From Haloprofundus salinisoli (GTDB lineage Archaea > Halobacteriota > Halobacteria > Halobacteriales > Haloferacaceae): a stretch of DNA of 64,000 bases. The position numbers were made by a program, and so were the translations under genes. Below, in pieces: positions 17,141 to 45,008 of the stretch (its first letter is position 1; each line of letters begins with the position of its first letter). Under the pieces are notes generated by a model. The model made no database searches, was not told the origin of the DNA, and saw only the letters and a list, made by a program, of their open reading frames with translations. The DNA lies in NCBI RefSeq assembly GCF_020097815.1, contig NZ_CP083663.1, positions 2,232,001 through 2,296,000 on the forward strand, read 5' to 3'.

Positions 17141-17575
17141 TAGGCCATCGTTACACCAGCCGATCCTCCCGCTTCCTCCGCTCAACCATCAGCCAGTCCC
17201 GGGCGGTAATCCACTCAGTCTTCACCGACCCTGACAGCCGTTGTTAACAGAGGAGATGGTGCTACCGGTGGGAGGGCTTTCGACTACTTGAGAACCGGAT
17301 AGTTCGCAGGCGTAAAGGTCACTCTGAGGTCGTTAAAACGCGTCATCAAGAGCTGGTAACCCACGAAGGACTATTATCGGTGATACAAAACTAGTTGGTC
17401 GAGTTCTCTTCACCAACGACATCGTATGAATGACCGTGCCCGTGGGCTGAGATCGTGAACTGTGGGCTATTGATTATGGAGAGGCTGGGCGAACAGTGGC
17501 CCGAGGAATCGCGGTTTTACTTTCAGGATGGTATACTCAAGCTTATCAGTACAGCAATTAGTACATTCAATCGAA
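17141..17575. other. Intergenic region before the Mre11-Rad50-like operon
   Basis: No gene, tRNA or clear repeat was found in these 435 bases. Short open frames occur, but none has a start, length and composition that support coding. The AT-richer end (about 17530-17575) is likely to hold the promoter of the downstream four-gene operon. Confidence 0.5.
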
Positions 17576-22005: not shown

Positions 22006-22007
22006 AG

Positions 22008-23285: not shown

Positions 23286-25168
23286 CAGACGACGTAGACG
23301 AACTCCTCAATAACGACCCCATCGCCAACGAACAACAAACCGACCAGTCGATTAACGCGGACGACACCGACGGACAAGATGACTCCTTGTCGCGGGAAGA
23401 GACCTCTATCCCCGAATCTCCCGTGCCTAACAACGGATCAGCACCCGTAGATGGAGAAGTTGGGCACGTACTCGCGAGCGAGGAGATTCGCGTGGCTCGC
23501 GACGAATACAACGTCAACACCTTCGTGACGACGAGTCGGCGCGATGACGTGCGGGTAGGCGACTACGTGGAAATTCCGTACCCCGGCGGCGACGATGAAC
23601 TGTTCTCGGTCATCGACGGCCTACGATATGAGCCGTACACGGAACTGGACGACAAGTCGGACACGCACAACATCATCAGCAAGGCCCGCACCCTCGACGA
23701 GTCCGAGTACGTCCTCGTGGCAGAACTCGACCCGATAGCGATCCTCCGCGATCGAGGTGAGGAACTGGAGCGGGGCATTGTGAACCGTATCCCCAAACCG
23801 AACACCCCGGTCAGCCTCTCTCGCGACGACGAGCACCTCCGTACCGGGCTCAACATCCCACAGGAGGGCATCTTCGCTGGTTACCTCTCGGTCGGTGGTG
23901 ACAGGATGGAAATCGACGGCGACCCGTTCCCATACTATATCCAAAACCCCGGTATTGATCCCGACACCGGCGAGGTTGAGGACGGCGAACCGGCGGTGTT
24001 CCGGCATGCACTCGTCGCTGGATCGACTGGCACCGGCAAGACCCATTTCACGAAGAACCTCCTGAGGCAGTTCGTCAGTGGCAAGCGGTATCCCGTGGAT
24101 GTAGGTTCGGACGGCGAAGTGGAGCGTAGCAGGCTCAATGTCGTCATCTTCGATCCGGAGAACGAGTACTGGGAAATGCGCGACGACAACCCGACGCTGA
24201 CTGACGAGCTGCGTCAACGGCTGCGCAACCAAGACATCAAGTTCGACGGCGTCGACGACTTGGAGGTGTTCGTTCCGGATGTTGACCACACACGGAGCCC
24301 CTCGACTGAGGAGAGTCAGCAGCTCACCATCCCGTTCTCCGTTGCGAAGCACGAACCACAACTCCTGATGCCATTCAACCAGATGTCGGACGTCACTCGC
24401 GGGGCCATCACCAGCTGTCTCGACGCCTATTTCAGCTGCTTCGAAAAGGACAACAACGACTGGACTACGCGCCCCATTCCCGAGCCGACGTACGAGGACT
24501 TCGTCCAGTTCCTCAACGAGCATGAACACGAGGACAGTCAGCTCCGCCAGTGGAACAGTATCGGCGATGGAACGTGGGACGCGATGTGCCGGCGCACGAA
24601 ACAACGCGATTATTTCGATGTCTTCGACACAGGCACGAACCCGTTCCCCAACATCTCCGACCAAATCTTCCGCGAGGGACAAGTCACAATCATCCCTACG
24701 AGCCACCTTCGGGGGGAGAAGGAGTACCTCGTCGTGTTGTCCATCCTCTCGTACATAATCGAGAACAAGATCGACGACTTCGGTGTCGACCCCGCAGTCA
24801 AGCGTACACCGATGCTCGTGGCGGTCGACGAGGCCCACAACTACTTCTCGAACCCATCGAACGTCCGCGAGGCCTACATCGTAGGGAAGGCCCGCGAGGC
24901 CGTCAAACAGGGTCGGAAGGACAAGCTTGGCCTGCTGATGATTACGCAGAATCCCGGCGACATCGACGGAGACATCCTCAAGCAGGTCAACACCAACGTC
25001 TTCCTCCAGCTCCGCAGCGAAGTTGTTGAGGATGTGCCGTCAGTCCCGCGCGGTTTCCGGAAGGACATCCCGAAGTTTGCAAAGGGACAGGCCGTCGTCA
25101 AGGCTCCTGACGTGGAGGTTGTGGAAGTAGTCGGACTCCCATACTGCCTTACGCGTCACGACAACTGA
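23282..25168 (+). CDS. HerA-like DNA translocase ATPase
   Basis: A 628-residue ATPase with an acidic, disordered N-terminus (1-60), a beta-barrel HAS domain around 60-110, Walker A AGSTGTGKT at 246-254, IFDPENEY at the beta-2 position and a Walker B with DEAH at 516-519, then the arginine-finger region near TNVFLQLRSE. It matches the HerA/FtsK-like hexameric pumps that drive NurA nuclease. It is the last gene of the Mre11-Rad50-NurA-HerA operon, and its ATG overlaps the nurA-like stop. Confidence 0.9.
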   Translation: MTDDVDELLNNDPIANEQQTDQSINADDTDGQDDSLSREETSIPESPVPNNGSAPVDGEVGHVLASEEIRVARDEYNVNTFVTTSRRDDVRVGDYVEIPYPGGDDELFSVIDGLRYEPYTELDDKSDTHNIISKARTLDESEYVLVAELDPIAILRDRGEELERGIVNRIPKPNTPVSLSRDDEHLRTGLNIPQEGIFAGYLSVGGDRMEIDGDPFPYYIQNPGIDPDTGEVEDGEPAVFRHALVAGSTGTGKTHFTKNLLRQFVSGKRYPVDVGSDGEVERSRLNVVIFDPENEYWEMRDDNPTLTDELRQRLRNQDIKFDGVDDLEVFVPDVDHTRSPSTEESQQLTIPFSVAKHEPQLLMPFNQMSDVTRGAITSCLDAYFSCFEKDNNDWTTRPIPEPTYEDFVQFLNEHEHEDSQLRQWNSIGDGTWDAMCRRTKQRDYFDVFDTGTNPFPNISDQIFREGQVTIIPTSHLRGEKEYLVVLSILSYIIENKIDDFGVDPAVKRTPMLVAVDEAHNYFSNPSNVREAYIVGKAREAVKQGRKDKLGLLMITQNPGDIDGDILKQVNTNVFLQLRSEVVEDVPSVPRGFRKDIPKFAKGQAVVKAPDVEVVEVVGLPYCLTRHDN

Positions 25169-30119: not shown

Positions 30120-31742
30120 ATGAGTCAGTCGCTCAGAGAGCGGATTCAGGAGCAGGGAAGTACGATGATATTGGGTGACTCTACTAACCTTCGTCAACTC
30201 CTTGAGTCAGAGTACGATGCTGAAGAAGTAGAGGGAGCGGTCGATGTGACCATTACCTCACCACCGTATGCAGACCGGAAAATCTACGAGGCAGCTCGGG
30301 AGGACCAGATTGGCATTGATGAGCCATATAATGAATACCTATCCAATCTTAAACGCGTCTTCGAGGATGTCTATCAAGTCACTAATGATACAGGGACACT
30401 GTGGGTTGTCGTCAACACGTTCAAAGAGGACCATCGCATGGTCGACCTACCTGGCGACATCATAGACATCTGCAATGGGGCAAATACGCCTTCGTACTGT
30501 CCGAAGTGTGAAACCCAGGGTCTGACAGTGCCAGTTGAGTCTAGTGCCGACGGGTCACGAAAATACTGTCCGAACTGTAATGCTCCTCTCGGAGGGGATG
30601 GGTGGCTATTGCAGGACATCGTAGTTTGGGACAAGAAGCGAGCCCTACCATACAGCTCGAAAGGGAGCTTCAGGAACGTCTTCGAATATGTTCTGTGTTT
30701 CAGCAAGACCAAGACCTTCGAGTTCAACTTAGATAAGATTCGAAATCCGAACCTGGAAGACCTCAAAGAGTGGTGGGTGAACTACCCGGAGCGGTATCAT
30801 CCCCGAGGTAAACTACCGGACAATATCTGGTCTATGGTGACACCCTCACAGGGAGCGTTTGCGGATACGTCGGTCGACCATCCTGCGCCGTTCCCACCGC
30901 GACTCGTTGAGCGCATCCTTGATCTGACGACGAAAACTGATGATGTTGTGTTGGATCCATTCGCAGGTTCGGGGATGGTCTGTGCACAGGCCAAAGCGAT
31001 GGGCCGGCATGCTATCGGTGTGGAGCTGAGTGAAGCGTACCTAGAGCGCTACAGCAAGTTGGAGACCGAAATTGCCGAAAAGTGGGCTACACGATTGGAG
31101 AATAATAAGGTTCTCCAAAAAAAGCAAAAGGAGTTTACCCGAGCCATCAGTGGTCTGCGTCAAATTCGGTTCTGTCGGGAACTCATTCGGTCACTTGGTA
31201 AAAACTATGACCTACCGGTGGGGAAGCTGGGGGTCGAAGGTATCCTCCACGACTCAACGGCGATTGGTGATCCAACAGCGAATCCGCAGGCGTTCATCGA
31301 AATGGAGGTCGAACTGTTGTGTGACGAACATAATCTCCCCGAACCCTTGGCTGCATTTAGCGAGACTGTCCATACGGTCATGAATGAAAAACCATGCAAT
31401 TCCTTTGGCATCGATTCGAACGTGAATTTGACGCCCGTAGAAGGGGATAGGGTGACTCTTAAGGCCAGCCAGCTGTTCAACGACCGAAAGGAGAAGCAAC
31501 GTGGCTACTTGTACACCGGTGGTGCTCATAACCAGTACAAAGACCAAGCTCCACTGATAGAACTCGTGGCGACTATTGAGGAGCACAGAGATAGCAGGAA
31601 TGTCTTTCCGCCAATCATCAGCACTGTCGGGGTAGATATCCCCCAGCCAGGGAATGTGTGTCTGGAGTGTGGTGAGTACACCTACAGCGTTGAGTACAGT
31701 TCCGAAGACATCCCCGAGATGAAAGTTCCCCTGTCACAGTAG
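30120..31742 (+). CDS. DNA methyltransferase, beta class (N4-cytosine/N6-adenine), with zinc-ribbon insert
   Basis: A 540-residue AdoMet-dependent DNA methyltransferase with the catalytic TSPPY at 46-50 ahead of AdoMet-binding DPFAGSG at 279-285, the circularly permuted order of the beta class; S-P-P-Y favours N4-cytosine. Between the motifs is a zinc ribbon (C127-x2-C130, C150-x2-C153) likely to take part in target recognition. The last 220 residues are unassigned and may bind DNA or partners; another CxxC (CLECGEY) lies near the end. It converges on a second, related methyltransferase. It probably protects host DNA from the nuclease operon at 34.1-44.6 kb. Confidence 0.9.
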   Translation: MSQSLRERIQEQGSTMILGDSTNLRQLLESEYDAEEVEGAVDVTITSPPYADRKIYEAAREDQIGIDEPYNEYLSNLKRVFEDVYQVTNDTGTLWVVVNTFKEDHRMVDLPGDIIDICNGANTPSYCPKCETQGLTVPVESSADGSRKYCPNCNAPLGGDGWLLQDIVVWDKKRALPYSSKGSFRNVFEYVLCFSKTKTFEFNLDKIRNPNLEDLKEWWVNYPERYHPRGKLPDNIWSMVTPSQGAFADTSVDHPAPFPPRLVERILDLTTKTDDVVLDPFAGSGMVCAQAKAMGRHAIGVELSEAYLERYSKLETEIAEKWATRLENNKVLQKKQKEFTRAISGLRQIRFCRELIRSLGKNYDLPVGKLGVEGILHDSTAIGDPTANPQAFIEMEVELLCDEHNLPEPLAAFSETVHTVMNEKPCNSFGIDSNVNLTPVEGDRVTLKASQLFNDRKEKQRGYLYTGGAHNQYKDQAPLIELVATIEEHRDSRNVFPPIISTVGVDIPQPGNVCLECGEYTYSVEYSSEDIPEMKVPLSQ

Positions 31743-31795
31743 GACACAGACCATAGATGACATAAATACCGTCATTAGGTGTTTGCAATCACTGT

Positions 31796-33448
31796 TCAGA
31801 AAAAATTCGACAAGGACGTATTGATGTGGTCCTCTGTGGATTGAATCTGAGTAGTTCCGAACTCAGTGTCCGACGCAGGAGGATTGTCAAGGAGTTGCTC
31901 GGAGAACTTCGGTCCGGAATCGCTTCGCTCAACGTAGACGAGAACATTGCTCACAAGCGCCGGGCAGTAGTTGCTTGCTGTGTGGCTGCGCCACCGTTCA
32001 GGGTCATTCCTGGCATCACCCCAAGCTTGTTCCGAGAGGGCTCTAGCCACTTGTTCGTGCTGGCCATTGGTGTAAATATAGGGCCCTCCATTGTAAGTTG
32101 GGAGTGACCCGTAATCGATATTTAACAGCGATTTAGTCCGAATAGTCGGATTGATCTTGAAGCCGTTCCAAGGCTCTTCGGCGGCCATGGCTTCCAGCCG
32201 GTCGAGATACTGACTGCCATCGACATCAGGATCGAAGACATAGGTGTAGGCAGTTTCCATAGTCTTGACGACGCCCTCGACCATCGATGGATCAGGTATC
32301 TCTGAATCTACGATGATGGAATGCAACCCGAGGTCAGCAATCGTATCGATGGATGAATCGCGGTCTCGTATTTCGGTACGGAGCTGTGTAGAGGCTTTCT
32401 TCGCGTAGACTAGCTGGCGAAGACCCCATATCGTTCGCGCCAGACGATCCTGTTGAAGTTCCAGTGTCTCATTGCTGGCTTGGCGCTCTTGCCAACGCTT
32501 ACGCAGGTACTCCAGAACGTCTCCATAGTTCGCGAGATATGTATCGCTGATCTCAAAACCCAGACCCCGACGGCCCATGAGCATCGCTTGAGCAACTGTC
32601 GTGCCGGAACCGCCGAAAGGGTCAAACACCATTCCCCCTTCTTCAGTTGTCAGTTGTACAATTCGTTCGACCAATTGTGGTGGAAATGGTGCGGGATGAC
32701 CTGGCCAGTTTTGATTCCAGCCCCCTTGGGTCGGAGTAACCATCTCCCAGACGTTATCGGGGATTTTGCCCCGCGGGTTGTATCGCTCGGGCCAATCAAC
32801 CCACCACTGTTCTAGTTCGCTCTCGTCGGCAATACGAACGCTGTCGAAGTCAAATGCTGGGCCGTCCGATTTAGTGAAACAGAGGATGTACTCAAAGACA
32901 TTGCGGAACGTCTTGTTCGCGTAGGGGCGCGCTCGCACCTTGTCCCATATGATCGTGTCGTGATGACTCCAGGAATCTTCAATTGTGGCATAGCCACAGG
33001 CATGACAGGTTGGACTCATGGAGTGTAGGTTAGCAGCGAGTTTTGTGCCACAATCAGGACACAATTCCATACCTTGAATATTCTCACAAATTTGGACGAT
33101 GTCACCTGGGAGGTCAACGAATCGACCGCGCTCACGGAAGGAGTTGACTATGACCCAGAGTGACCCGTCCAGTTTGGTCAGCTCGTAGGTTTGCCGGAAT
33201 ATGGTACGGAGGTCTTCAATATAGTCCTCGTAGGCATCACCGAACCCAACTTGAGTATCTCGGTCTGTATCATACTCTATCAAATCCGAATATGGTGGGG
33301 AAGTGATTGTCACATCGATAAACTTGGAATCGGCGACTGCATCACCGAAGAGTTCACGGATGTTCGACCGGAGCTGGCGGCTGTCTCCCTGCTGGAGCCC
33401 ATCGATGTCGTTAGATAAGGAAGGGAGAGAACGCTCATTATCGCCCAT
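31796..33448 (-). CDS. Second DNA methyltransferase, beta class, with zinc-ribbon insert
   Basis: A 550-residue paralogue of the preceding enzyme, with SPPY at 50-53, zinc ribbon cysteines C130, C133, C148 and C151, and DPFGGSG at 276-282. The two share layout and phrases such as LPGDI, FRNVFEY and PAPFPP-x-LVERI, but differ across the zinc region and C-terminus, suggesting different target sequences or opposite strands of one asymmetric site. It starts at ATG 33448 opposite a winged-helix gene. A likely role is self-protection within the adjacent restriction system. Confidence 0.9.
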   Translation of the reverse strand: MGDNERSLPSLSNDIDGLQQGDSRQLRSNIRELFGDAVADSKFIDVTITSPPYSDLIEYDTDRDTQVGFGDAYEDYIEDLRTIFRQTYELTKLDGSLWVIVNSFRERGRFVDLPGDIVQICENIQGMELCPDCGTKLAANLHSMSPTCHACGYATIEDSWSHHDTIIWDKVRARPYANKTFRNVFEYILCFTKSDGPAFDFDSVRIADESELEQWWVDWPERYNPRGKIPDNVWEMVTPTQGGWNQNWPGHPAPFPPQLVERIVQLTTEEGGMVFDPFGGSGTTVAQAMLMGRRGLGFEISDTYLANYGDVLEYLRKRWQERQASNETLELQQDRLARTIWGLRQLVYAKKASTQLRTEIRDRDSSIDTIADLGLHSIIVDSEIPDPSMVEGVVKTMETAYTYVFDPDVDGSQYLDRLEAMAAEEPWNGFKINPTIRTKSLLNIDYGSLPTYNGGPYIYTNGQHEQVARALSEQAWGDARNDPERWRSHTASNYCPALVSNVLVYVERSDSGPKFSEQLLDNPPASDTEFGTTQIQSTEDHINTSLSNFF

Positions 33449-33506
33449 GTTGACTTCACCCTATAGGTTCTGCGTACATGAGTCTGTAGATTTGCAAGAC
33501 AGGAAT

Positions 33507-33520
33507 ATGTTAATCAACAT
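33507..33520. promoter_or_regulatory. Palindromic operator candidate between methyltransferase and winged-helix genes
   Basis: ATGTT-AATC-AACAT forms an inverted repeat with 5-base arms in the 104-base divergent gap between the methyltransferase start (33448) and the winged-helix start (33553). The position fits autoregulation by the winged-helix protein and control of the methyltransferase. Confidence 0.4.
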
Positions 33521-33552
33521 GTTTATGATGTCAGTATCGTGACTCTCAGGTC

Positions 33553-34104
33553 ATGTCAAACGCTTCCAAGCCTAAAGAAACGGGCGAGAAGATTGAAGTC
33601 GCGATGCCGCTCTTCGGGGGTGGAGATGCCTACCTAGAGACGCTAAAACGTGTCTTGGAATTCGTTGAGATGGCGTCGCCTGAAGAGCAGAAGTTGATTC
33701 AATGGTTCAAGACTTCCTTCTCCAACGTTTCCAGCGATTATTCAATTCATCGCCGGTTGCAGTTCCTCCAGTCGTTGCGGTTTATAGCTGAAGAAGACGG
33801 TGTGTTCACGCTTGGCGCAGCTGGTCGGCGATTGCGAGCCACCGAGTCAGCGGACGTGGTGTACAATATACTGAAATCGAAAGTCACTGCCGTTGAGGAG
33901 ATATTGGGATACCTCTGTCGCGGCCAGGTTGAAATTGAGACGCTCGAAAATGCCTTGGACCACGATTATGACCGTGTGAAATGGAAGCTGAACTGGCTTC
34001 GAAGCCTGGGTTTCGTAAATCAGGTTAATGGCGAGATTTACATCGCAACCGCGGAAGGTCAAGACGCTTTTCGAGTATATTCTGAGCCCGATTTTAGCCA
34101 TTAA
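33553..34104 (+). CDS. Double winged-helix DNA-binding protein
   Basis: A 183-residue protein with two consecutive winged-helix-like units: residues about 40-100 (SIHRRLQFLQSLRFIAEEDGVFTLG) and about 115-175 (VKWKLNWLRSLGFVNQVNGEIYI). Each has the recognition helix plus beta-wing pattern. It lies between the methyltransferase pair and the long nuclease operon and is transcribed divergently from the second methyltransferase, so it is a good candidate regulator of both, like the controller proteins of restriction-modification systems. It could alternatively be a structural DNA-binding subunit. Confidence 0.65.
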   Translation: MSNASKPKETGEKIEVAMPLFGGGDAYLETLKRVLEFVEMASPEEQKLIQWFKTSFSNVSSDYSIHRRLQFLQSLRFIAEEDGVFTLGAAGRRLRATESADVVYNILKSKVTAVEEILGYLCRGQVEIETLENALDHDYDRVKWKLNWLRSLGFVNQVNGEIYIATAEGQDAFRVYSEPDFSH

Positions 34105-34160
34105 TCCTTCAGACCCGTCATCAGGGTTCTATAGTCCTCGCTAGGCACTACGTCCGTAGC

Positions 34161-34589
34161 TTACAGGTCATCGTCGAAGATGTCTTGTGAGAGTCGTATA
34201 ATATCTGTCGAGAGGTGACTCCACATGTTCTCGGGGCTCGTGCGAAGGTCGTCTAGATACGCGACTCCACCTGTAGCGAATTCGCCAGCGATTTTGTAGA
34301 TTTCGCGTTTATTGTCAAGGATGTCGATGTGGTTGGATTTCTTGATAGCAATAGCCTTGAGGACCCAGCGTTGGTCATCCGACAGCGACGATAAATTCGC
34401 TAAGGCGTGACGTGATTCAATCTTCTGCTGGAGGCCTTGGTCGAAGCCGATGGCCGCTGCCAGCACAAAAAGATCTTTGCGGGTCATACCCTTGAAGGCC
34501 GAATCAGACTCGGTCGTCAATGCCTCAAAGGTGTCTGCAACAGAGTTGTCGATGATGATGTCTCGGGGTGCACTGGTTTGGTCATTCAC
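34161..34589 (-). CDS. Small defence-operon protein, similar in pattern to Dnd-associated small proteins
   Basis: A 142-residue protein, last gene of the eight-gene minus operon, overlapping the DndD-like gene by eight bases. It contains GMTRKDLFVLAAAIGFDQG followed by LKAIAIKKSNHIDIL and YKIAGEFATGGVAYLDDL, a pattern I associate with small proteins found beside Dnd-type systems (recollection, not verified). It is probably a regulator or adaptor of the ATPase encoded just upstream. No catalytic residues are evident. Confidence 0.6.
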   Translation of the reverse strand: MNDQTSAPRDIIIDNSVADTFEALTTESDSAFKGMTRKDLFVLAAAIGFDQGLQQKIESRHALANLSSLSDDQRWVLKAIAIKKSNHIDILDNKREIYKIAGEFATGGVAYLDDLRTSPENMWSHLSTDIIRLSQDIFDDDL

Positions 34590-36582
34590 GGGGAATCACC
34601 TCGGTTGTCTGGTTCTTGTAATTAAGCAGGTATTCATTTGCAACGCTACTAATCAAAAGTGATCTGACGCTGTCGGTGTACTCTTCATCGGTCATGAGGA
34701 ATGTAATCTGTGTGTTATCTAGGTACTGTGGGAGATTCTCAGCAATGCGCTTGCGGGGCTCACTAGAAATACGTCCCAATGGCGTGTCGATGATGACTGG
34801 AGCATCGAACCCGGAGATTTGCGAGAGAGCCGCCATGAATGACAGCGCCAGGACCTGAGTCTCCCCTGCGGATAGCGACCCGATCTTGTTGTCGCCGTGA
34901 GGGTCCAAGACTTCGATGGAATAGTCGTCGTTCAATACAAGGTCGTATTCCTCATTCTTCCAAATCAGAGTATTGAAGTAATCCTCGAGATTCTCCTCAG
35001 TCTCCTGGCGGATCTCGGCCAGGATGTCGGCTTTGATATGTTCGAGTTCGTCGACGGCCTCTTCAGTGAACTCTATTTGGGCAACTAATCCGCGGTAGCG
35101 ATCGTGTTTGTCGAGTTCGCGCTTGAGCCCCTTATCTTTCTGCTCAAGTTCGCTTTCAATTTCTGCAATTTCGTTTTCTAGAATCGCAATTTCACCATTC
35201 AGGTTGTCGCGCGTATCCTCTAAGCGCTCGAGTTGGTCTTCCAAGGAGCCGACATCAACGTCATCGTCAGGTAGCTCGTACGCCTGAAGTTCTGAGGAAA
35301 TGTCCTTGACCCGCTGCTGGTCACTGTCGATTTCGTCTTCCAACTCGGCGATGAGCTGGCGCCTCGAACGAATTTGCTTGACCTTATCCTTGGCGGCGTC
35401 GATGATTGAAGGGATACGCGTCTTGCCCTCCATCCCTTCCTCAGTAGCCTCTGGAATTTCATCTCGGAGGTTCTGTAGGCGTTGCCTGTGGGCCTCGATC
35501 TCGTTGCGTTCTTCCTCGGACTCTGCCCACTCAGGGTCTAGGGGCTGCCCACACATGCATTCACCTTCCTCGATAAGTTCGTCGATAAACCATCGCCGTA
35601 TTTTGGGAGGAAGTTCTCCTTTGCTCTCTTTCTCGGAGAATTCTTCCTTGGCATAGTGCAGCGCTCTGTGGGCGTACACGGTTGGCCCGGCCTCCAACAT
35701 GAGCTCGGTAACCTCCTTTTGAAGGCGTAGGACTCGCTTTTCTTTGGCTTCGATATCCTCACGGAGGTCATCACGCTCCTTGTAGCGGCGACGGACCTCT
35801 TCGTTGCTGATATCCGCCATCTTGTTACGGACGTTTCGGATGTTCTGCTCTGTTTCCTCAAGGTCACGCTCCTTCAGGCTTTTTTCCTCTTTGGTCTCCT
35901 CAATCTCGGCTTCTAGTGCCTCGATTTCGTCCTGTAGCTCACCGACCTCACCCTCGGCATCTTCGGCGTCGTTCTGAAGATCACTTTTGGTTTTCTTCAG
36001 ATGGTCGACCGATCGGTTCAGGAGCTGGGTGTGTGAGACATCTAAGATTGCGTCCTTGACATCTGTCGGGTAACCCTCCGAGAAGAATCCCTCGAGGTCC
36101 TCACCATCAAAGAGGAAATAGTCAGAGACGTTTCCGGGCAGGATCTGGGTGAGGTACGTGTTGGGGTTATTCTCGGTGACCCAGTTTCGGTTGTCGTAAC
36201 GCTGGAGTGTGAGGTCGTCTCTAACGTCCTCAAACCCGCCATCGTCCCGTTTGTATGTCTCGAAGTCGCGGCGGAACCGGTACTTTGGGTTATCGTATCC
36301 TAATGTAATCTCGACGAAGCCCGAAGCGGATTCGCCTGGCTCTAATTCACTCAGCTTTGGCTGGGAGACGTAGGGAAGCTGCTCCTCTTCGGAATCTCCG
36401 TTGTGCTCTTCTTTACCGTAGAAGCACAGTGTCACCGCATTGAGTAGATTGGATTTGCCCGCCCCGTTTTGTCCTTCGAGGATGTTGATACGGCTGTGTT
36501 CGGGACAGGATAGATCGATAGCCTGTTCGCCAGCGTACTGGCGGTAGTTCTTGATTCGAATTTCGTGGATTTCCAAGCTCAT
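34582..36582 (-). CDS. DndD-like SMC-family ATPase
   Basis: A 666-residue SMC/Rad50-type ATPase with Walker A GQNGAGKS at 37-44, central coiled coils (about 195-300 and 370-530) around a short hook with C342-x-C344, the ABC signature LSAGETQVLALSF and a Walker B IIDTPLGRI. The wording around Walker B (DTPLGR) and the overall size are those of DndD, the ATPase of DNA phosphorothioation. No DndC-type sulfurtransferase or DndA is present nearby, so here it probably works with the methyltransferases or nucleases instead. It overlaps both neighbouring genes. Confidence 0.8.
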   Translation of the reverse strand: MSLEIHEIRIKNYRQYAGEQAIDLSCPEHSRINILEGQNGAGKSNLLNAVTLCFYGKEEHNGDSEEEQLPYVSQPKLSELEPGESASGFVEITLGYDNPKYRFRRDFETYKRDDGGFEDVRDDLTLQRYDNRNWVTENNPNTYLTQILPGNVSDYFLFDGEDLEGFFSEGYPTDVKDAILDVSHTQLLNRSVDHLKKTKSDLQNDAEDAEGEVGELQDEIEALEAEIEETKEEKSLKERDLEETEQNIRNVRNKMADISNEEVRRRYKERDDLREDIEAKEKRVLRLQKEVTELMLEAGPTVYAHRALHYAKEEFSEKESKGELPPKIRRWFIDELIEEGECMCGQPLDPEWAESEEERNEIEAHRQRLQNLRDEIPEATEEGMEGKTRIPSIIDAAKDKVKQIRSRRQLIAELEDEIDSDQQRVKDISSELQAYELPDDDVDVGSLEDQLERLEDTRDNLNGEIAILENEIAEIESELEQKDKGLKRELDKHDRYRGLVAQIEFTEEAVDELEHIKADILAEIRQETEENLEDYFNTLIWKNEEYDLVLNDDYSIEVLDPHGDNKIGSLSAGETQVLALSFMAALSQISGFDAPVIIDTPLGRISSEPRKRIAENLPQYLDNTQITFLMTDEEYTDSVRSLLISSVANEYLLNYKNQTTEVIPRE

Positions 36583-36782
36583 TTGGAATCCCCCTCTTCG
36601 GGGTTGGGAGCGTACTGCTTCAGCAGTTTGCGGTAAGTGCTTTTGAAGTGTGGCTGGTCGCGGTCCATCTTCGAGCGTTCGAACGCCAGGGCTTCCTGGA
36701 TGAACTCACGAAGGTCACCGTCGCCTATCTTGTCGACTTCGGCGGTAATTCGTCGATTGACGTCTTCTTTTTCCATTGTCAT
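36579..36782 (-). CDS. Small helical protein
   Basis: A 67-residue, charged, probably all-helical protein (DLREFIQEALAFERSKMDRD) encoded directly upstream of, and overlapping by four bases, the DndD-like ATPase gene. The tight coupling suggests a subunit or regulator of that ATPase. No family recognised. A 75-base gap separates it from the helicase gene, possibly with its own ribosome-binding site. Confidence 0.6.
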   Translation of the reverse strand: MTMEKEDVNRRITAEVDKIGDGDLREFIQEALAFERSKMDRDQPHFKSTYRKLLKQYAPNPEEGDSK

Positions 36783-36857
36783 AAGGTGATGTGGTATCTT
36801 TTGTTCGTAGACGGAACGGACAGAGTTCTCGTTCGCGTGATGCTCTGTCCCGTAATT

Positions 36858-38903
36858 TTATAATTCATACTGAGTTCGAAGTGGTTCAATACGGTTACGT
36901 GCTTGGACTGCGTTTTTGGCGAGTCCTGCAAACTCCTCAAAGCGTCTGAGTTCCTTACGGAGTAGTCCTTTTTCAGATTTGATGAGCGTCCGATCAGGTT
37001 TCAGACTTGGCACAACAATGATGTCATAGATGTCTGCGTAGTCCTTTCCGAATTCATCGGCCCGACGGAGGACTCGCCCGCGGCGCTGGACGAACTGCAT
37101 GGGATTGTTACTGTTGGACATCAGAATCGCCCGCTGAGTAGAGGGAACGTTGACTCCTTCGTCTAGGCATTTCATCGCTACCAGAGCGTCGTATCGGCCA
37201 TCGGCAAAGCTCTTCAACAACTCGGCTCGTTCCTCGGTCTCCTCTTCAGCAGTGAACCGATGTTGTATAATGCCTTCCTCGTTGAGCACGTCCTGGACGT
37301 AATCGAACTGCTGGGGGTTCGTGTAGACTAACAGGTGGTCTCGTTCATGCTCAGCTATATCGCGAATGATGCGCCGGAGTTGCGGAATCTTGTTATTGGC
37401 AGCCTTGACCATACGTGCTCGCTTGAGCATCAGTCGTTCCAGTAGCTCTTGGTCTGGATCTTCTTTGGAGAATTCTGTGGCAATCTTCCGAGAGATGTTT
37501 CGATATATCGCCAGCTCTTCCTCGGTTAGTTCGACGATGACCGGGTAGTAGTTGTAAGGCACTAGGTACTCCGGAATGGCGTCTTTCAGCGGAAATTCAT
37601 AGATAATATCGCCGAAGTACTCTAAGAGGTACTCTGTGCCGGTCTCGTCGTACTGGCGTTCAGGCGTCGCCGAGAGGCCCAGTCGGAAGTTGTACCCTCG
37701 GTGGAGCCCCTTTCGTCGATTTTCAGAACCTAGACCATGGACTTCATCGGCGATGAGTAACGCCTCGCAGGGTGCCTGCTTGGTCTGTTCGATGAAGTAG
37801 TCGTGACTCATCGAGGTATGGGTCGTCAGGACGATTTCGCAATCTCTAATCCCGATTGTGAGGTCATCAATGGCCTTCGAAAGGTCCTGCTTCCAGTTGC
37901 GGTTGGCGCTCCCGTAGACATGCTTGCTGCGCGAATAGCCCCACTCCTCAAGTGACTCTTCCCATTGTGTCGCGAGATGCGTGTAGGGAACGCTCACCAC
38001 GATGAGCAACGGGTCGGTCCGATCCTCAATGAACTCATGCATTGCGCCTAGAGCAGTGTATGTTTTGCCAGTCCCAGTGGCCATTCGAAAGAGCCCGTGG
38101 TAGCCGTTAGTCTTCCAAGCATCGACCGCCTCTTGCTGGTAGTCTCTAAGTTCGATATCCGGTGTGTTCATATCTGGAAGTGTGTATGGTCGCTGAGTGG
38201 TGGTTCGTAGCGAGATAATCTCCTCGTAGACAGCGTCTGGTATGGAGTAGATGCTGACGTTGTCGTCCTCATCATTCCAAAGTCGCTCGAACCGCCGGTC
38301 GTGTTGCATAACTCGTTGGGTCTCGCGATCGTCAATCCAGTCTGCGAACACATCATATGATTCGTAGTTGCGGAATCCACGTTCGGAATCGTTCTGTGAG
38401 CCGTGGACAGCGACCCTATCGCCTGTCGCCGACTCGAATATTGCCCATTTGTCATGGAACTCACCGTCGAGGCGATTAGTTGGGACCGCAAAGCGGATCT
38501 TAATGATCCCGTCAGCAATGAGCCAGCCGAGCGCGTTCTTAGTGTCCTCGGAGAGGCATTGGTGTAGATCTGTAACCTGGTCCTTTAGTCTGTTTCGGAG
38601 TATTTGGTCCTGCTGAGCCTGTGAGCCGGTTTTGATGGCCTGCCAATCGGACTCGCTGAGTTGCGGGCTAGTGATGATCTTAGCCTTACCGCCATGCTTG
38701 GCGAGTGTTGTCATACCGGCTGCGTTTTCTCGCAACCACCCACTGGTGAAGTAGCCTACCCCCCGTTTATACTCTGCCGTCCGTTCTAACAGGGGGACAT
38801 ACAGTTCTGAGACGAAATCCGTCCGACTAGTGTCGATGACGGCAGGAAGGTCCAAGTCTCGAAAGGATGTTTGCTCCCGTCGGTTAGGGTGGGTCCCAGT
38901 CAT
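36858..38903 (-). CDS. PLD-family nuclease fused to SF2 helicase
   Basis: A 681-residue protein. The N-terminal 230 residues form a phospholipase-D-like nuclease domain with H150-D-K152 (FHDKWAIFE) and the following GSQND, and residues 250-650 form a superfamily 2 helicase: motif I MATGTGKT at 274-281, DEVH at 386-389, SATPERQ, and the motif VI region FVQRRGRVLR. Such fusions act as the DNA-unwinding and cutting component of several restriction-like defence systems. Its start overlaps the end of the RecB-like gene, placing it in the same operon as the AddAB-like proteins and the DndD-like ATPase. Confidence 0.85.
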   Translation of the reverse strand: MTGTHPNRREQTSFRDLDLPAVIDTSRTDFVSELYVPLLERTAEYKRGVGYFTSGWLRENAAGMTTLAKHGGKAKIITSPQLSESDWQAIKTGSQAQQDQILRNRLKDQVTDLHQCLSEDTKNALGWLIADGIIKIRFAVPTNRLDGEFHDKWAIFESATGDRVAVHGSQNDSERGFRNYESYDVFADWIDDRETQRVMQHDRRFERLWNDEDDNVSIYSIPDAVYEEIISLRTTTQRPYTLPDMNTPDIELRDYQQEAVDAWKTNGYHGLFRMATGTGKTYTALGAMHEFIEDRTDPLLIVVSVPYTHLATQWEESLEEWGYSRSKHVYGSANRNWKQDLSKAIDDLTIGIRDCEIVLTTHTSMSHDYFIEQTKQAPCEALLIADEVHGLGSENRRKGLHRGYNFRLGLSATPERQYDETGTEYLLEYFGDIIYEFPLKDAIPEYLVPYNYYPVIVELTEEELAIYRNISRKIATEFSKEDPDQELLERLMLKRARMVKAANNKIPQLRRIIRDIAEHERDHLLVYTNPQQFDYVQDVLNEEGIIQHRFTAEEETEERAELLKSFADGRYDALVAMKCLDEGVNVPSTQRAILMSNSNNPMQFVQRRGRVLRRADEFGKDYADIYDIIVVPSLKPDRTLIKSEKGLLRKELRRFEEFAGLAKNAVQARNRIEPLRTQYEL

Positions 38904-41065
38904 AGCTGATCACCGCCCTCGTCCGTCACAGGCCCACAGCCGAGGTAGCTGTACGGGCAGCCCGCACAGTGATCGCCCGGCGTGTAATTGTCGAAAGAGA
39001 CGGTTGCAAGAGTCTCGACGTACGGGCGTGCGTGGGTAGCCGACGTCTTGGCCAAGGACTCGCCCCTACTGGCACGCTCGTAGGTGCTGACACCTACGTT
39101 GTCGGGATGAACTTGTAGGAACTCACCTGGTAACACCGTCGCATCAGGCCAGCGTTGTTGGAGTGTTTCGTCCTTGCAAAGGGCCAGTTGGTAGATGGCC
39201 AATTGCAGGTGATCTGGCTCCTTTGCTCCGGTCTTTAGGTCAATAGGGCGTATGCCCTCTGACGTCCTTTCCACGGCATCGATGGAACCGACGATTTCTC
39301 GGCCACCGAGAACTACCTTGAAGGGGACTTCTGTTGCGACAACGGGCCATTCGTTCCCGTCCATGTCGAACAATATCCGAATCCGCTGCTCGACCGCCTC
39401 AATAGTCTCTGTATCTTGGTGCTTGTGACTGGTTGCCACTGCATCGAGGCGATCCAACCAATCAGCCAAGTCCTGACTTTGAGGCCACTCATGTTCTGCG
39501 ACTGCGTGAGTCAGGATTCCGACAGTCCGGGGCGAGGGCCCGTCAGTAGCTGTTGAGCTCGACGACGAATCGTCGATGCCCGGTGCCTCAAGTACACCCT
39601 CTAACAAAGCCCGACGTTCGCAGTTTGCACCGGCGCTGACAGCCGTGAACGAGTAGCTACGGTCTAGACTCCGCGGCTTACTCCGCGTACGATCCAGCGC
39701 GGTCACGTCAACCTCTGGATCGGTAGTCTCGGCGGCAGTCCGTGTCTCCTGAATGGTGGCAATAAGCGCTTCCGTCTCGGTCGAGACTCCCTCTCCACGG
39801 ACGCTTAGGTCCGATGGTTCACTGTCCGGCGGCTGCCAGGTCTTTGTCCCGGAGGGCAACACCGACTGAAGTTCAGTCCAAATATCGAAATCGGCGGAGG
39901 CTGTGGACGTCTCCAAAGCGTCGTTCAGATACGGGTCCACGTCTGGGAGCAACTGGGATGGGGCTGTCGAACCTGTCGAGTGTCCAATCATAACCAGCAG
40001 ATCACGGGGGCGGGTGATGCCTACATAAGCCAAGCGGCGCTGGTTATTGATTCGGCGAGCGGCCACGCTCTGCTCAGCAGTGTCAGTGAAACGCCGGAGT
40101 CCCCGAGCGACGTGTTCAAGTTGTTCCTTGGAATGCCATACTGGCCAATCAGCCGAAGTCAGATCTGGCATGACGACTACCGGTGCCTCACTACCCTTGG
40201 CCTTGTGTATCGTGGAGATGCGGACACCGACCTGCGACGCCGGCACAGTCGCAAAGGTTCGGACATTTCTGATGGCTGTCACCGAACACTGTGCAGCATT
40301 ATCGTCGACCCCAGTCAACTCGGTCGCTTGCTGAAGTGCATTTAGACTCGGTATCTCGGTTGAGATGCTATCTAGTCCCAGGTACTCTACCGTTCGACCC
40401 GATGCCCCTACCAGTGATTGGTGGGCTGCCTCGGAGGCAATCGTTTCCACGTCGGCGAGAAACGCGGTCACGCGTTTGCGGACATCCATCGGATCCATGT
40501 CAATGGCCGAATCCGGCAGTATCGCTTGACCCGTCGCGATGTCCTCTTTGATATACTCATAGGGTCGTTTCATGCTGTCCAGTGTCCCATCCCGAATAGC
40601 ATTCGTAGGATCTTTGGGGATACCGTATAGTACGGTCAAGATATTAGCGATGCCAGCTGCTTGGTCGTCGATACTGTTGCTGTTCGTGATGTGCGAGGCG
40701 TTGCAGTCCTTGATACGGATGGCCGAGTCCTCCTCTAAGCACCCGACTGGCTCATCGTGTCTGCGGAGGGCCGTCGCCAGTTCCAGAAGGTCCAGCACAG
40801 CGCCGCCGACGGTACCTTTGAGACCCCTATCGCCTACTCGATAGGCGGGAATACCGAGACTGAGGAGCGCCTCTAGGCAATCCTTAGCACGGTCGTTCGT
40901 TCGGACAACCACTAGTATGTCCTCCGGAGAGACGGGCGTCGACACCCCAGCGGCCTCTCCTGTCAGGAGATCACATACTGCATGTTGGAAGGGGGTCTCG
41001 AAAGACCTGTAATTACTGCTGTCGATAACTGCAATCTGAGCGTCTGTCATGTCGAATTCAGTCAT
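38900..41065 (-). CDS. UvrD/AddA-like helicase C-terminal half fused to RecB-type PD-(D/E)XK nuclease with Fe-S cysteines
   Basis: A 721-residue protein. Residues about 280-360 hold the late helicase motifs of UvrD/AddA (ISTIHKAKGSEAPVVVM; RRLAYVGITRPRDLLVM), but there is no Walker A; that lies in the gene just upstream. From about 490 on is a RecB-like nuclease: CERRALLEG, H at TVGILTHA, D in VGSIDAVE, D-L-K in IRPIDLKTGAK, and a terminal CAGCPYSYLGC. The four cysteines match the iron-sulfur staple of AddB/Cas4-type nucleases. With the 491-residue partner it would rebuild one helicase-nuclease. Confidence 0.8.
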   Translation of the reverse strand: MTEFDMTDAQIAVIDSSNYRSFETPFQHAVCDLLTGEAAGVSTPVSPEDILVVVRTNDRAKDCLEALLSLGIPAYRVGDRGLKGTVGGAVLDLLELATALRRHDEPVGCLEEDSAIRIKDCNASHITNSNSIDDQAAGIANILTVLYGIPKDPTNAIRDGTLDSMKRPYEYIKEDIATGQAILPDSAIDMDPMDVRKRVTAFLADVETIASEAAHQSLVGASGRTVEYLGLDSISTEIPSLNALQQATELTGVDDNAAQCSVTAIRNVRTFATVPASQVGVRISTIHKAKGSEAPVVVMPDLTSADWPVWHSKEQLEHVARGLRRFTDTAEQSVAARRINNQRRLAYVGITRPRDLLVMIGHSTGSTAPSQLLPDVDPYLNDALETSTASADFDIWTELQSVLPSGTKTWQPPDSEPSDLSVRGEGVSTETEALIATIQETRTAAETTDPEVDVTALDRTRSKPRSLDRSYSFTAVSAGANCERRALLEGVLEAPGIDDSSSSSTATDGPSPRTVGILTHAVAEHEWPQSQDLADWLDRLDAVATSHKHQDTETIEAVEQRIRILFDMDGNEWPVVATEVPFKVVLGGREIVGSIDAVERTSEGIRPIDLKTGAKEPDHLQLAIYQLALCKDETLQQRWPDATVLPGEFLQVHPDNVGVSTYERASRGESLAKTSATHARPYVETLATVSFDNYTPGDHCAGCPYSYLGCGPVTDEGGDQL

Positions 41066-42537
41066 TTATCAGTCTCCGCCTCATTGTTTGTCTGGCTATT
41101 CTCTGTACGGTAGGCCAACGTATCGCGGGAGTCCTCACCGTCGATGAGACCGCGAAATCGGTCGCTGAACTCGACGATTTTGGCGCGAGAACGGTAATTC
41201 GTATCTAGACAGTCCGTATGGATCTTCTGGAAACCCTGTTCGATACCGCGTTCGAAGAGGTCCCGGTCGCCGCCGCGGAATTCGTTAACCGTCTGGGCGG
41301 AATCACCGATAAAGACGACCCTGTCCTCGCCCAATAGCGACACCAACCAAAACTCTAGAAGATTGATATCTTGGGCCTCGTCCACGAACACGATGTCGTA
41401 GCTCCCCTGAAACGACTCTGGATTCTGTGCGACTGCCACCGCTGCGTAATAGGTCAAGTCCTGGAAATCAGCCAAGCCTGCCTCGGCACGTACTGACTCG
41501 TAGGCTTGATATGCGGCTACCCAATTCGTTAGCTCCAAGGCCTCTGAGGCGAAGTTTCTAAACTCTTCACCAACAGGGAATGAGGTAGGCGCCGATTCTA
41601 GGTCGGTGTTCAGATACTCTGTCGGACTGTCGGCGTCAAGCATCGCTGCTGGGACAGCAGCAGTTGCCACAGGATCGGTCGGCTGCTCAGGCCAGTTGTC
41701 GTAGGTGTATGACACCATGGCTTCGCAGGTCGCTCGCAAGGTTATCAAGTTCCGTGTCACGAGGGCCTCAGTCCGACTACTGGGTCGAAACGACTCGGCG
41801 AGCGCGTTGGTATGAGTCCGCAGCTTTTCGAGTCCATTCAGGACCGCCATTTTGTCTTCCCGGCTCGTGCCACCAGGCACGATTTCCGTCTCGACGATGT
41901 CTGACATCTGTTCGAGGAACCCGTCAAGGCGGTCGGCCAGCGACTCTGAGAGTTCTAACTCCGCCGCATCGATTACGGGGTCGTCGACAGGCAGGCGGCT
42001 AGTATCCAGCTCGTTGAGCGAGACGGGGTCTACCCTGATACCGGCTGACTTTAATGCGTTTACAACGCTCAATAACCGCTGGGAGCCGATGTCGACGTCG
42101 ATCTCCTCACACGCTTGGACCGCGATGGCAGCTTGCTTGGCTTCGTCCGCAATGTCGAAGTCTATCGGTAGATCGACCGTCGAGGCTGCTGCCCCGCCAA
42201 TATCTAGTTTCTCGCGGGCCTGCTTGTGCAGTGTTTGGATAGTTAAATCCGGAACTACCTCGGGTAGCTGTGTGGCGAATTCGGCACGTAGGTCTGCCGG
42301 AACTGAGACGTTGAACGCCACTACGAGCATCGAGTCTGGGGAGATTCCCTGCTGCACGTGGTAGTCTACTGCAAGCACGATGGACGTCGATTTTCCAGCG
42401 CCTGCCGGGCTCTCTATCTTGATGGTTTTGTTGTCTACCTTACGGGGAGCCCGCTGAGGTATGGGGATATGCGAGATCTCATACTCGTAGACCCTTCGAC
42501 TGTACTCCGCGTCGTCCGTTGAGGGTGATTCACTCAT
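41062..42537 (-). CDS. UvrD/AddA-like helicase N-terminal half
   Basis: A 491-residue SF1 helicase fragment: Walker A ESPAGAGKST near residue 45, motif Ia (MLVVAFNVSV), TLHKQAR, Walker B FVDEAQDIN near 390, motif III (VFIGDSAQTVNEFRGG) and motif IV (DTNYRS). The later motifs V and VI are missing and occur in the next gene, which overlaps this one by four bases. Because both halves are otherwise intact and in order, this looks like a natural split of a single helicase into two polypeptides, not a decay product. Confidence 0.85.
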   Translation of the reverse strand: MSESPSTDDAEYSRRVYEYEISHIPIPQRAPRKVDNKTIKIESPAGAGKSTSIVLAVDYHVQQGISPDSMLVVAFNVSVPADLRAEFATQLPEVVPDLTIQTLHKQAREKLDIGGAAASTVDLPIDFDIADEAKQAAIAVQACEEIDVDIGSQRLLSVVNALKSAGIRVDPVSLNELDTSRLPVDDPVIDAAELELSESLADRLDGFLEQMSDIVETEIVPGGTSREDKMAVLNGLEKLRTHTNALAESFRPSSRTEALVTRNLITLRATCEAMVSYTYDNWPEQPTDPVATAAVPAAMLDADSPTEYLNTDLESAPTSFPVGEEFRNFASEALELTNWVAAYQAYESVRAEAGLADFQDLTYYAAVAVAQNPESFQGSYDIVFVDEAQDINLLEFWLVSLLGEDRVVFIGDSAQTVNEFRGGDRDLFERGIEQGFQKIHTDCLDTNYRSRAKIVEFSDRFRGLIDGEDSRDTLAYRTENSQTNNEAETDK

Positions 42538-43810
42538 GACTATTGTCCTCGCTTGGCTGCTGTTCTATCACCGACTCCCTCGATAGTGTTGCCAGTGCCT
42601 CAGTGAGTTCTTGGCGTACGTTGTCTTTTATCTCTGAGGGCGCCGTTTCGACGCTGTTACGGAGCTCTATACAGAGTGCTCGCAACTCCGAAACGTCGTA
42701 ATCTCCCTCTTCGATAGTCTCTCGAATTTCTCTAGCTGTGGCGATATCATTGTGAACGGCAGTCGTCACAGGCAGGGCGTCTTCGATGGCACTTACCAGC
42801 GTTGAGGGCATGGCGTCGCTCTCGTCGTCGGGCGCGAAGAGATGGACTTCGGCGGTGGCTCTGTCAATGGCCGTTCCCAGCTGTCTGGCATGCAGCGCTA
42901 ACCAATACTGGCTGCGGAGGTTGCTCCGTTGAGGGGCGTGGCCGAATGTCTCCCTGATGGCCGCTTTGGTCGGAGCGGTCATTGTCGGGTGAGCTTGCCA
43001 GCCCGGCGACCCCGGTGGGAAGAGCTTCGTGGGCTCGGGAGAGTCGTCGAAGGAGTCCATGGAGACGTCCATGACGCAGATAACGTCGTAGTCCCGGTCC
43101 AGTTGCATGATGGAGGTCAGTGTCACTCCGTCGTTCTGAACTCCGTCGAGTTGATAACGTTGACCCCAGTCATCGTCGCCGAGGGCGTCTAACTGATTGT
43201 CAAATTCTTCCCAGGCCCCCTCGAAGAGGTCGTCGTTATCCATGAAGGAGGCGACCGACAATGCACGCGCATAGTGTTCGATAGCCGCTTGTTGCTCTGG
43301 GGTCCCCGTCGATTCCACAAAGACGGAGGAGTCGGCTTCACCCAGAAGACGCTCCAGAACATTCGCTGTCGTCCAGTAGGTTTCTAGCCCCGTTACGAGA
43401 GAGTCGGCCTGACGAACATCCTGAATCAATTGCTGAGTATCAACCACCGTCTGCCGGAATCGCTCGAAGACTCGGATGGTCCTTTCGGTGTCGCCTACTG
43501 CGGCTCCTACTAGAAGCTGGAGCTCTAAACGAACCGGGTTCGTGCGTGATGCTGTCGGCACCTCTACGGCCACATTGATACCCACCGCTCTCAAAGCATC
43601 GATAAGAGTACCGAAATCACCTGATTCGTCTTTCAGTACGATGGCAATCGACTTGTCAGAAGATGCCTGTCTGATGACCGACCCGACAGCTGTTGCTTGG
43701 GCCTTTAAATTGCCAACGCGATGGAGTATAACGTCACATTCGCTCACCACCGAGTCGGCTTTAGGGAGACCACGGCGGAGCCATGCGCCTACCTCGTAAG
43801 TTTTACTCAC
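42530..43810 (-). CDS. AddB/RecC-like inactive helicase subunit, C-terminal part (tentative)
   Basis: A 426-residue protein without Walker motifs. The segment RDYDVICVMDVSMDSF followed by TKLFPPG resembles the strand and loop of AddB/RecC where active helicases carry motif V, and AIDRATAEVHLFAPDDE resembles the motif VI region with lost catalytic residues. It sits directly upstream of the AddA-like halves and overlaps them, as expected for the partner subunit of an AddAB/RecBCD-type complex. The assignment depends on these weak matches and on context. Confidence 0.5.
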   Translation of the reverse strand: MSKTYEVGAWLRRGLPKADSVVSECDVILHRVGNLKAQATAVGSVIRQASSDKSIAIVLKDESGDFGTLIDALRAVGINVAVEVPTASRTNPVRLELQLLVGAAVGDTERTIRVFERFRQTVVDTQQLIQDVRQADSLVTGLETYWTTANVLERLLGEADSSVFVESTGTPEQQAAIEHYARALSVASFMDNDDLFEGAWEEFDNQLDALGDDDWGQRYQLDGVQNDGVTLTSIMQLDRDYDVICVMDVSMDSFDDSPEPTKLFPPGSPGWQAHPTMTAPTKAAIRETFGHAPQRSNLRSQYWLALHARQLGTAIDRATAEVHLFAPDDESDAMPSTLVSAIEDALPVTTAVHNDIATAREIRETIEEGDYDVSELRALCIELRNSVETAPSEIKDNVRQELTEALATLSRESVIEQQPSEDNSHE

Positions 43811-44571
43811 TTAACACCACACTCCGTCAAGGATGCCGCGATAGCACTGGCGCCTCCAGGTTCGGTGTAAGGTCGGCGGATGGCCACGTTTGAGGTGAGT
43901 ATGACAGTTACAGACGTGTGTTCGGCCAAAGCCCTCACCAAGCGTTCGTCCATCGGCACGAACTCCTCACCTTGGGTCATAACGAGTGGGCGCAGGGCTA
44001 ATGACTCTGCGTCACGGAGCAAATCTATTGTCCAAGGAATAACCCGGTCAGGCGGCATATACCCGTGCGTCTGGCAACGCTGGATATAGTCCTGAGCGAC
44101 TCTTCCGATTTGGTTTAGAGGTGACGGTTTGGCTATCAAGTCAAGGTCTCGCCAAAGTGCTTGTTGGAGAACCTTGTTGACCTCCTTGATTACTCCGTTC
44201 GGGTCTTTCCGGTAGGCATTGGCGAGTACACCTGAGTGCCAGCTATCCTGCGCGTGAGACTCGATTAGCTTGCACCGCAGAGCGTTTGCTTCTTCCTGAC
44301 CTAACACTTGGAGTTCGCTCCGTTGGGACGCCAGAAGGTTTCGACACCAGGCAGGGAGTGACATCGCCGAGCCCTGGACTGCTTGTGTGAGAGTCTCAAC
44401 CCCACTGGGGTATCGACTGACACCAATTGGTAAGCCATTGATGCTCTCATGGGCTTCGCGGACCGTCTTCTCGACCTCGTCCGGTGCGCATCGGACGACG
44501 GTGAGCGTAGACTCCTTATTCCGAGTTGCTGGTGGTGGATACACGGGTATTAGATGTCGGTGGCTCTGCAA
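43807..44571 (-). CDS. AddB-like operon protein, N-terminal part (tentative); first gene of the operon
   Basis: A 254-residue protein overlapping the 426-residue gene by four bases. It shows no motif that I can name; the mix of helices and the closing strand VTVILTSNVAIRRPY would fit the early helicase-like domain of an AddB-type subunit split from its C-terminal part. The start is unusual: TTG 44571 is the only start codon in the frame, yet the frame continues open and protein-like upstream to about 44637 (NIRQNILLGEELL). True translation may begin at a non-standard codon upstream. Confidence 0.5.
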   Translation of the reverse strand: MQSHRHLIPVYPPPATRNKESTLTVVRCAPDEVEKTVREAHESINGLPIGVSRYPSGVETLTQAVQGSAMSLPAWCRNLLASQRSELQVLGQEEANALRCKLIESHAQDSWHSGVLANAYRKDPNGVIKEVNKVLQQALWRDLDLIAKPSPLNQIGRVAQDYIQRCQTHGYMPPDRVIPWTIDLLRDAESLALRPLVMTQGEEFVPMDERLVRALAEHTSVTVILTSNVAIRRPYTEPGGASAIAASLTECGVK

Positions 44572-45008
44572 TAGTTCTTCACCTAACAGAATATTTTGCC
44601 GGATGTTGGCTGATGTAATTCGTGTCCGTATAGCCTGCTATGAGTTATCTATCAACTAACCTTTTACAGTCTTCTTAGTAACTGGGGCCGCACGAACTCC
44701 ACTGAAAATTTTTGCGAGAATTTTGGGCGCTTTGCTATTTGGTAATCAGACCCATGGGAACTATTCCTTTACAGGAGATATTTCTTACTCATAGTTTTGC
44801 CCGACCGTGAGAAAGCTCACGAGAAAATTTTGGCCTGAATTTTGGATTTCTTATTAACCACAATTTAGTATTACTCTATTAGCTTATAATATATACGCCT
44901 GTTCGCCTTTCAGAGAGGATAAAGAACCGCTAACCGGAGTTAATAACATTCAAAGACGATTTCACCATTTTGGCTCTTTGATACCATCAGACAATGTAAC
45001 GACACAAA
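44572..45008. promoter_or_regulatory. AT-rich upstream region of the eight-gene operon with direct and inverted repeats
   Basis: This 437-base gap, among the most AT-rich in the window, has no gene. It contains an imperfect direct repeat, GAAAATTTTTGCGAGAATTTTGGGC (44704-44728) and a second copy starting GAAAATTTTGGCCTGAATTTTGG (44823-44845), about 119 bases apart. Directly before the second copy lies a perfect hairpin CGTGAG-AAAG-CTCACG (44806-44821). Placed 130-280 bases before the operon's first gene, these are candidate binding sites for its regulator. Confidence 0.45.

Follow-up and report, generated by a model that had tools for sequence, protein, structure and literature searches.

AddAB and RecBCD enzymes unwind and degrade DNA from its ends, and the multi-gene restriction-modification systems of the helicase-methylase-ATPase and DISARM types combine methylation with an SF2/PLD-type helicase, a logic in common with the locus described here. 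Its best family matches are, however, PbeA and PbeC, which are not components of those systems. In DndCDEA-PbeABCD, a phosphorothioate (PT)-based archaeal antiviral system, the block that PbeABCD imposes on unmodified virus depends on PT (Xiong 2019, PMC6459918); the locus has the same PbeA-B-C-D order and families, but lacks dndCDEA and carries two DNA methyltransferases (MTases) and a four-gene AddAB-like block upstream of pbeA. The CxC ABC ATPase-DndE systems with methylases (Rakesh 2024, PMC10853773) resemble it in their HKD-SF2 helicase, small protein, CxC ATPase, DndE cognate and nearby DNA methylases, whereas its operon also includes an SF1 helicase-nuclease, and the main text of that study names no AddA, AddB, RecB or UvrD partner. 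Finally, haloarchaeal AddB-nuclease-AddA loci (L104-L123) and the solved AddAB and AdnAB enzymes share with it collinear AddB- and AddA-like parts, an Fe-S PD-(D/E)XK nuclease and the SF1 motifs, but its proteins are only about 20-25% identical to those of the haloarchaeal loci, both subunits are split, a separate AddB nuclease gene is lacking, and the genes are linked to Pbe.

Our main reading, to which we give a probability of about one half (0.52), is that the locus encodes a methylation-linked PbeABCD (CxC ATPase-DndE) restriction-type defence with an added DNA-degrading arm. A preliminary description had presented the whole as an undescribed system. In that form the proposal was rejected, as PbeA and PbeC match curated models at E < 1e-200: half of the locus is the known PbeABCD, and its link with MTases is in print. 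The novel part is the operon coupling of a split AddAB-like machine to Pbe, which is unmatched in the papers and genomes examined.

Genomic setting and organization of the locus

The window, i.e. the whole stretch of 64,000 nucleotides that was analysed (G000:C1:2232001-2296000), belongs to a genome of 3.42 Mb in three contigs that is 99.4% complete. From about 6.4 to 54 kb of the window the GC content is 0.47-0.59, against 0.64-0.69 for the chromosome, and this region is an integrated island, although no convincing pair of attachment repeats was found at its edges. The locus lies in the middle of the island and comprises two convergent MTase genes, a short gene for a predicted winged-helix protein, and an operon of eight genes on the minus strand (34161-44571). 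The features are as follows:

6719-7900: tyrosine integrase, at the left edge of the low-GC island
30120-31742, plus strand: M1, beta-class DNA methyltransferase with a zinc-ribbon-like insert (PF01555 N6_N4_Mtase, 2e-43; TSPPY, DPFAGSG)
31796-33448, minus strand: M2, beta-class DNA methyltransferase paralogous to M1 (PF01555, 1e-37; TSPPY)
33553-34104, plus strand: wH, predicted winged-helix protein (HTH_45, 8.5e-5, under cut-off)
34161-34589, minus strand: PbeD, 142 aa, DndE-like, with two ribbon-helix-helix units (dnd_assoc_4, 2.6e-6, under cut-off)
34582-36582, minus strand: PbeC, DndD-like CxC Zn-hook ABC ATPase (PADLOC PbeC, 6.7e-222)
36579-36782, minus strand: PbeB, small protein of 67 aa between PbeA and PbeC (assigned by position and size)
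36858-38903, minus strand: PbeA, PLD/HKD nuclease fused to an SF2 helicase (PADLOC PbeA, 2.8e-226)
38900-41065, minus strand: AdC, AddA-like second half, RecA-2 with motifs V-VI and an Fe-S PD-(D/E)XK nuclease (UvrD_C; PDDEXK_1, 2.5e-17)
41062-42537, minus strand: AdN, AddA-like first half, RecA-1 with motifs I-IV (UvrD-helicase, 6.6e-26; GAGKS at 46 and VFVDEAQ at 383, Walker A and B)
42530-43810, minus strand: BdC, AddB-like second half with a RecA-2 fold, collinear with other haloarchaeal AddB (AF2 model)
43807-44571, minus strand: BdN, AddB-like first half without Walker A, collinear with the N-terminal third of other haloarchaeal AddB

The AddB-like pair, the AddA-like helicase in two pieces with an Fe-S RecB nuclease, the PLD-SF2 fusion, the 67-aa protein and the DndD-like ATPase of the preliminary description were thus all identified. 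It had also described the eight minus-strand genes as tightly overlapping, and overlaps of 4-8 nt are indeed present at all operon junctions except pbeA/pbeB, where there is a 75-bp gap. In transcription order they are BdN/BdC (GTGA, 4 nt), BdC/AdN (8 nt), AdN/AdC and AdC/pbeA (both ATGA) and, beyond the gap, pbeB/pbeC (ATGA) and pbeC/pbeD (8 nt). An open reading frame is present where a double winged-helix protein had been proposed, but its domain match is weak; wH is perhaps a regulator or DNA binder, and a small number of Pbe or AddAB loci contain relatives of it (L102, L117, L064, L070).

The PbeABCD half

The four genes nearest the MTases (34161-38903) are the known PbeABCD (CxC-DndE) set, in agreement with its published definition. 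In PbeA, H150-x-K152, N171 and E181 as well as GTGKT, DExH and QRRGR are invariant in a 16-member alignment, and PbeC displays a Walker A motif (GQNGAGKS), an LSAGE signature and CMC at residue 342. PbeD had been called a Dnd-associated-like small protein; a match of this kind exists, but is weak. Its AF2 model (pLDDT 85) shows two strand-helix-helix units (E-H-H, E-H-H), and among solved structures three DndE entries are nearest (Z 9.7-10.1) and the next family is at Z 7.2, so that PbeD is predicted to fold like DndE. The NCBIfam models dnd_restrict_1, DndD and dnd_assoc_4 all match under their equivalog cut-offs, which is what proteins not belonging to the PT-linked type should show. A nuclease-less variant is found at L217:6486-16265, where the pbeA-like helicase (475 aa) lacks the PLD part and is accompanied by a PbeC-like ATPase and two MTases.

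PbeB is 37-54% identical to the PbeB of most loci of its clade and is a small, variable protein. This would fit a suicide mode of the kind put forward for HKD-nuclease CxC-DndE systems (Rakesh 2024, PMC10853773), which counts against a degradation reading: PbeA would be restrained by PbeB and PbeC-D until an invader triggers the nuclease on host DNA too, the AddAB-like part speeding destruction of the cell's DNA. Such a mode is improbable here, as the two MTases retained beside the operon point to self-marking, and PT-modified virus is spared by PT-linked PbeABCD (PMC6459918), which amounts to self/non-self discrimination.

Methyltransferases as putative modification partners of Pbe

The restriction-type reading that we prefer requires a mark on host DNA, for which the two MTases are candidates. 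M1 and M2 are 36% identical over 465 aa, and each has the order TSPPY ... DPF[AG]GSG together with a C-x2-C...C-x2-C insert. This motif order places both in the beta class, and together with the PF01555 matches it bears out their earlier description as beta-class enzymes. The SPPY motif suggests that M1 probably methylates N4-cytosine. Elsewhere in haloarchaea, Pbe-linked MTases are about 970 aa long and carry an N-terminal GHKL-type ATPase domain (L125:16991-19918, L064:15152-18058, L102:5941-8874), which is absent from M1 and M2. In several MTase-linked loci pbeD is followed by two conserved proteins of unknown family, of about 377 and 330 aa (L125:14742-16861; relatives in L067, L070, L071, L124); a Pfam search with the first gave no match.

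PbeABCD was discovered with DndCDEA (PMC6459918) and some relatives of the present set are so linked; it might therefore still use phosphorothioate made elsewhere in the cell. DndC was, however, not found anywhere in the 99.4% complete host genome, and the close clade is MTase-linked. The earlier observation that a sulfur-modification gene is absent thus extends genome-wide for DndC, and we rejected PT dependence, an alternative that is largely refuted.

The clade in question was defined on a PbeA tree, with partner labels from home-made HMMs (DndC > 200 bits, N4/N6 MTase > 150 bits) assigned to 46 PbeA loci; 53 further loci, mostly bacterial, carried neither label, C5 methylases and distant MTases lying outside the search and some contigs ending nearby. 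The window falls inside a fully supported haloarchaeal clade of 16 rows, 15 MTase-linked and one PT-linked (L078), whereas the rows outside it comprise 29 with a PT link and one with an MTase link. Over the whole tree the labels need to change only three times, whereas 200 shuffles required 13.5 changes on average and never fewer than 10. Consistently, M1-like MTases were found in 12 of 391 genomes and pbeA lies within about 12 kb in 10 of these (Fisher p 2e-7, a value that ignores relatedness of the genomes), nine of the 10 having two such MTases. The remaining two genomes have M1-like genes without pbeA; in one such neighbourhood (L215) the gene next to the MTase looks like a separate, stand-alone GHKL ATPase, while GHKL and MTase are fused in Pbe-linked relatives (L125).

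The link between Pbe and MTases is therefore real and recurrent. The pattern is already in print and thus known: of 320 solitary pbeAC, 155 have MTases no more than 10 kb away (Xiong 2019, PMC6459918), a study that noted that most pbe operons lack dnd genes and left a methylation partnership open, and CxC-DndE loci contain methylases (Rakesh 2024, PMC10853773). The locus and its clade nevertheless provide a clean, DndC-free haloarchaeal case for testing methylation-linked Pbe.

A reduced AddAB-like machine split at equivalent hinges

The first four genes of the operon are predicted to encode a divergent, reduced AddAB/AdnAB-like helicase-nuclease. AdN plus AdC align end to end with haloarchaeal AddA proteins of about 1155 residues (about 25% identity), and BdN plus BdC with AddB proteins of about 700 residues (about 20%). 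All AddA-like SF1 motifs I-VI and the nuclease motif are present, distributed on two polypeptides, the cut falling within the linker between motif IV and RecA-2; AdC retains the nuclease residues D596 and D609/K611 and the cysteines C482/C700/C703/C710. Walker A is absent from BdN and likewise from the haloarchaeal AddB proteins examined. The AF2 model of BdC (pLDDT 66, moderate confidence) matches UvrD 286-647 and AddB 281-768 with Z of about 15, and places the AddB-like cut at the hinge equivalent to the AddA-like one, between the RecA-1 and RecA-2 halves. Other haloarchaeal loci have the order AddB, X, AddA, where X is a PD-(D/E)XK protein of about 330 aa (PDDEXK_1) whose cysteine positions suit an Fe-S cluster. 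This second nuclease, whether as X or as an AddB nuclease domain, is absent in the window, where BdC and AdN overlap by 8 nt, and the Fe-S nuclease of AdC is the single one left in the AddAB-like half. A search of the host genome for a housekeeping AddAB revealed no AddAB-like genes besides the copy in the locus.

The splitting of both subunits and the loss of the AddB nuclease gene could reflect decay, both genes having been broken by frameshifts with pbeABCD alone still working, and there is no close relative to show selection. We consider this highly improbable. The breaks lie at the equivalent RecA hinge with exact 4-nt start/stop overlaps (GTGA and ATGA), motifs I-VI, the PD-(D/E)XK residues and the four cysteines are intact, and third-position GC is like that of the neighbours, an outcome that would be rare from two accidental frameshifts. 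Cuts at the same hinge with such overlaps and no motif lost argue for evolved gene fission over frameshift damage.

A union found at a single locus

An operonic union of PbeABCD with a doubly split AddAB-like machine was not described in the literature searched. About 110 PbeA loci, of haloarchaeal, bacterial and other archaeal origin, were compared, and only in the window did an HMM of AddA or AddB match within some 10 kb of PbeA. A full PbeA is lacking in the 20 AddAB loci that were fetched, as are matches to MTase and DndC. Searches with BdC gave nothing above 27% identity (391 class-wide genomes and two samples from other families, of 146 and 125 genomes) and with AdN nothing above 25% (170 genomes of the host's family), all matches being of 22-27%; since these samples hold one genome per species, other strains may carry the union. 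A plasmid search gave five distant AdN matches and one BdC match. A BdC-only scan of genome contigs and an AdC scan of viral contigs found none, but were seeded with unconserved 8-residue words and say little.

The preliminary description had looked to conserved co-occurrence of the whole gene set in other haloarchaea. The pairing of M1-like MTases with pbeA stands, but AddAB-like genes occur apart from Pbe elsewhere, so that the ten-gene set as a whole is not a conserved unit. A union seen once in about 110 PbeA loci does not allow selection to be demonstrated from conservation, and functional unity is thus proposed for a single instance. It is possible, but rather unlikely, that the locus consists of two neighbours, PbeABCD and the MTases forming the defence and the AddAB-like genes a module of their own that serves repair, recombination or a separate helicase-nuclease defence and came to lie upstream by insertion, under a common promoter. 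The separate occurrence of AddAB-like and pbe loci elsewhere is in line with this, as is the fact that pbeA is usually the first gene of its own operon. However, the ATGA overlap of AdC and pbeA predicts translational coupling of the AddAB-like half to pbeA, and the absence of AddAB from the other Pbe loci means that the two have no known habit of sharing islands. GC3 is moreover uniform over all 11 genes (0.56-0.65), giving no sign of different compositional histories for the two halves; codon position 2 accounts for most of the excess in overall GC of the AddAB half.

Proposed mode of action

Under the reading of a methylation-linked Pbe defence with a degradation arm, M1 and M2 would methylate host sites as a self mark in place of PT, possibly as N4-methylcytosine given the SPPY motif. 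By Dnd precedent, PbeC-PbeD would scan the DNA, and PbeA, as an SF2 translocase and HKD nuclease whose catalytic residues are in place, would attack DNA with unmarked sites, making or exposing ends. The four-polypeptide AddAB-like complex could then load on the ends so produced. In it, AdN and AdC would rebuild one SF1 motor with a single Fe-S nuclease, and the split AddB part, which lacks Walker A, would act as an ATP-dead structural partner. The complex would unwind and degrade the invader, perhaps adding the destruction of DNA that the sulfur-linked PbeABCD did not show in Haloterrigena jeotgali.

That methylation marks self and that the operon attacks unmarked DNA, as proposed in the preliminary description, is the best reading by analogy and fits the Pbe precedents (PMC6459918, PMC10853773). 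The self-marking and Pbe attack steps would thus rest on known systems, whereas degradation by the AddAB-like complex is our own suggestion. Viral DNA is not visibly degraded by PT-linked PbeABCD (PMC6459918), which counts against such an arm and would also make it a clear functional difference. More tentatively, the Pbe complex may sense modification and directly load a dedicated four-polypeptide helicase-nuclease; the division of each SF1 fold at the hinge of RecA-1 and RecA-2 could then serve to restrict assembly or activation of the motor to targeted DNA. If the AddAB half is functional, this would be a restriction system equipped with a RecBCD-type machine for degradation, and a naturally split SF1 helicase with ATP-binding and arginine-finger motifs on different proteins.

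Other features of the window

The pbeA-pbeB gap (36783-36857, minus strand), which relatives also have, contains an inverted repeat (GGACAGAG ... CTCTGTCC) that may form an RNA hairpin. An ARAGORN call of a tRNA-Glu antisense in pbeC (36138-36233, plus strand) is probably spurious, with no Rfam match in the window. A scan for Sigma-70 type promoters and terminators showed no excess over shuffles, the model being the wrong one for archaea. An AAA clamp-loader-like gene adjoins the island, which also harbors a four-gene Mre11-Rad50-NurA-HerA operon (17528-25168, plus strand; Rad50-like protein of 1090 aa, NurA domain 3.7e-14). Copies of two of its proteins occur in another genus (L101:10-2324), with identities of 93% for HerA and 92% for NurA; they lie about 6.6 kb from another pbeA, and the operon is apparently a mobile end-processing cassette.
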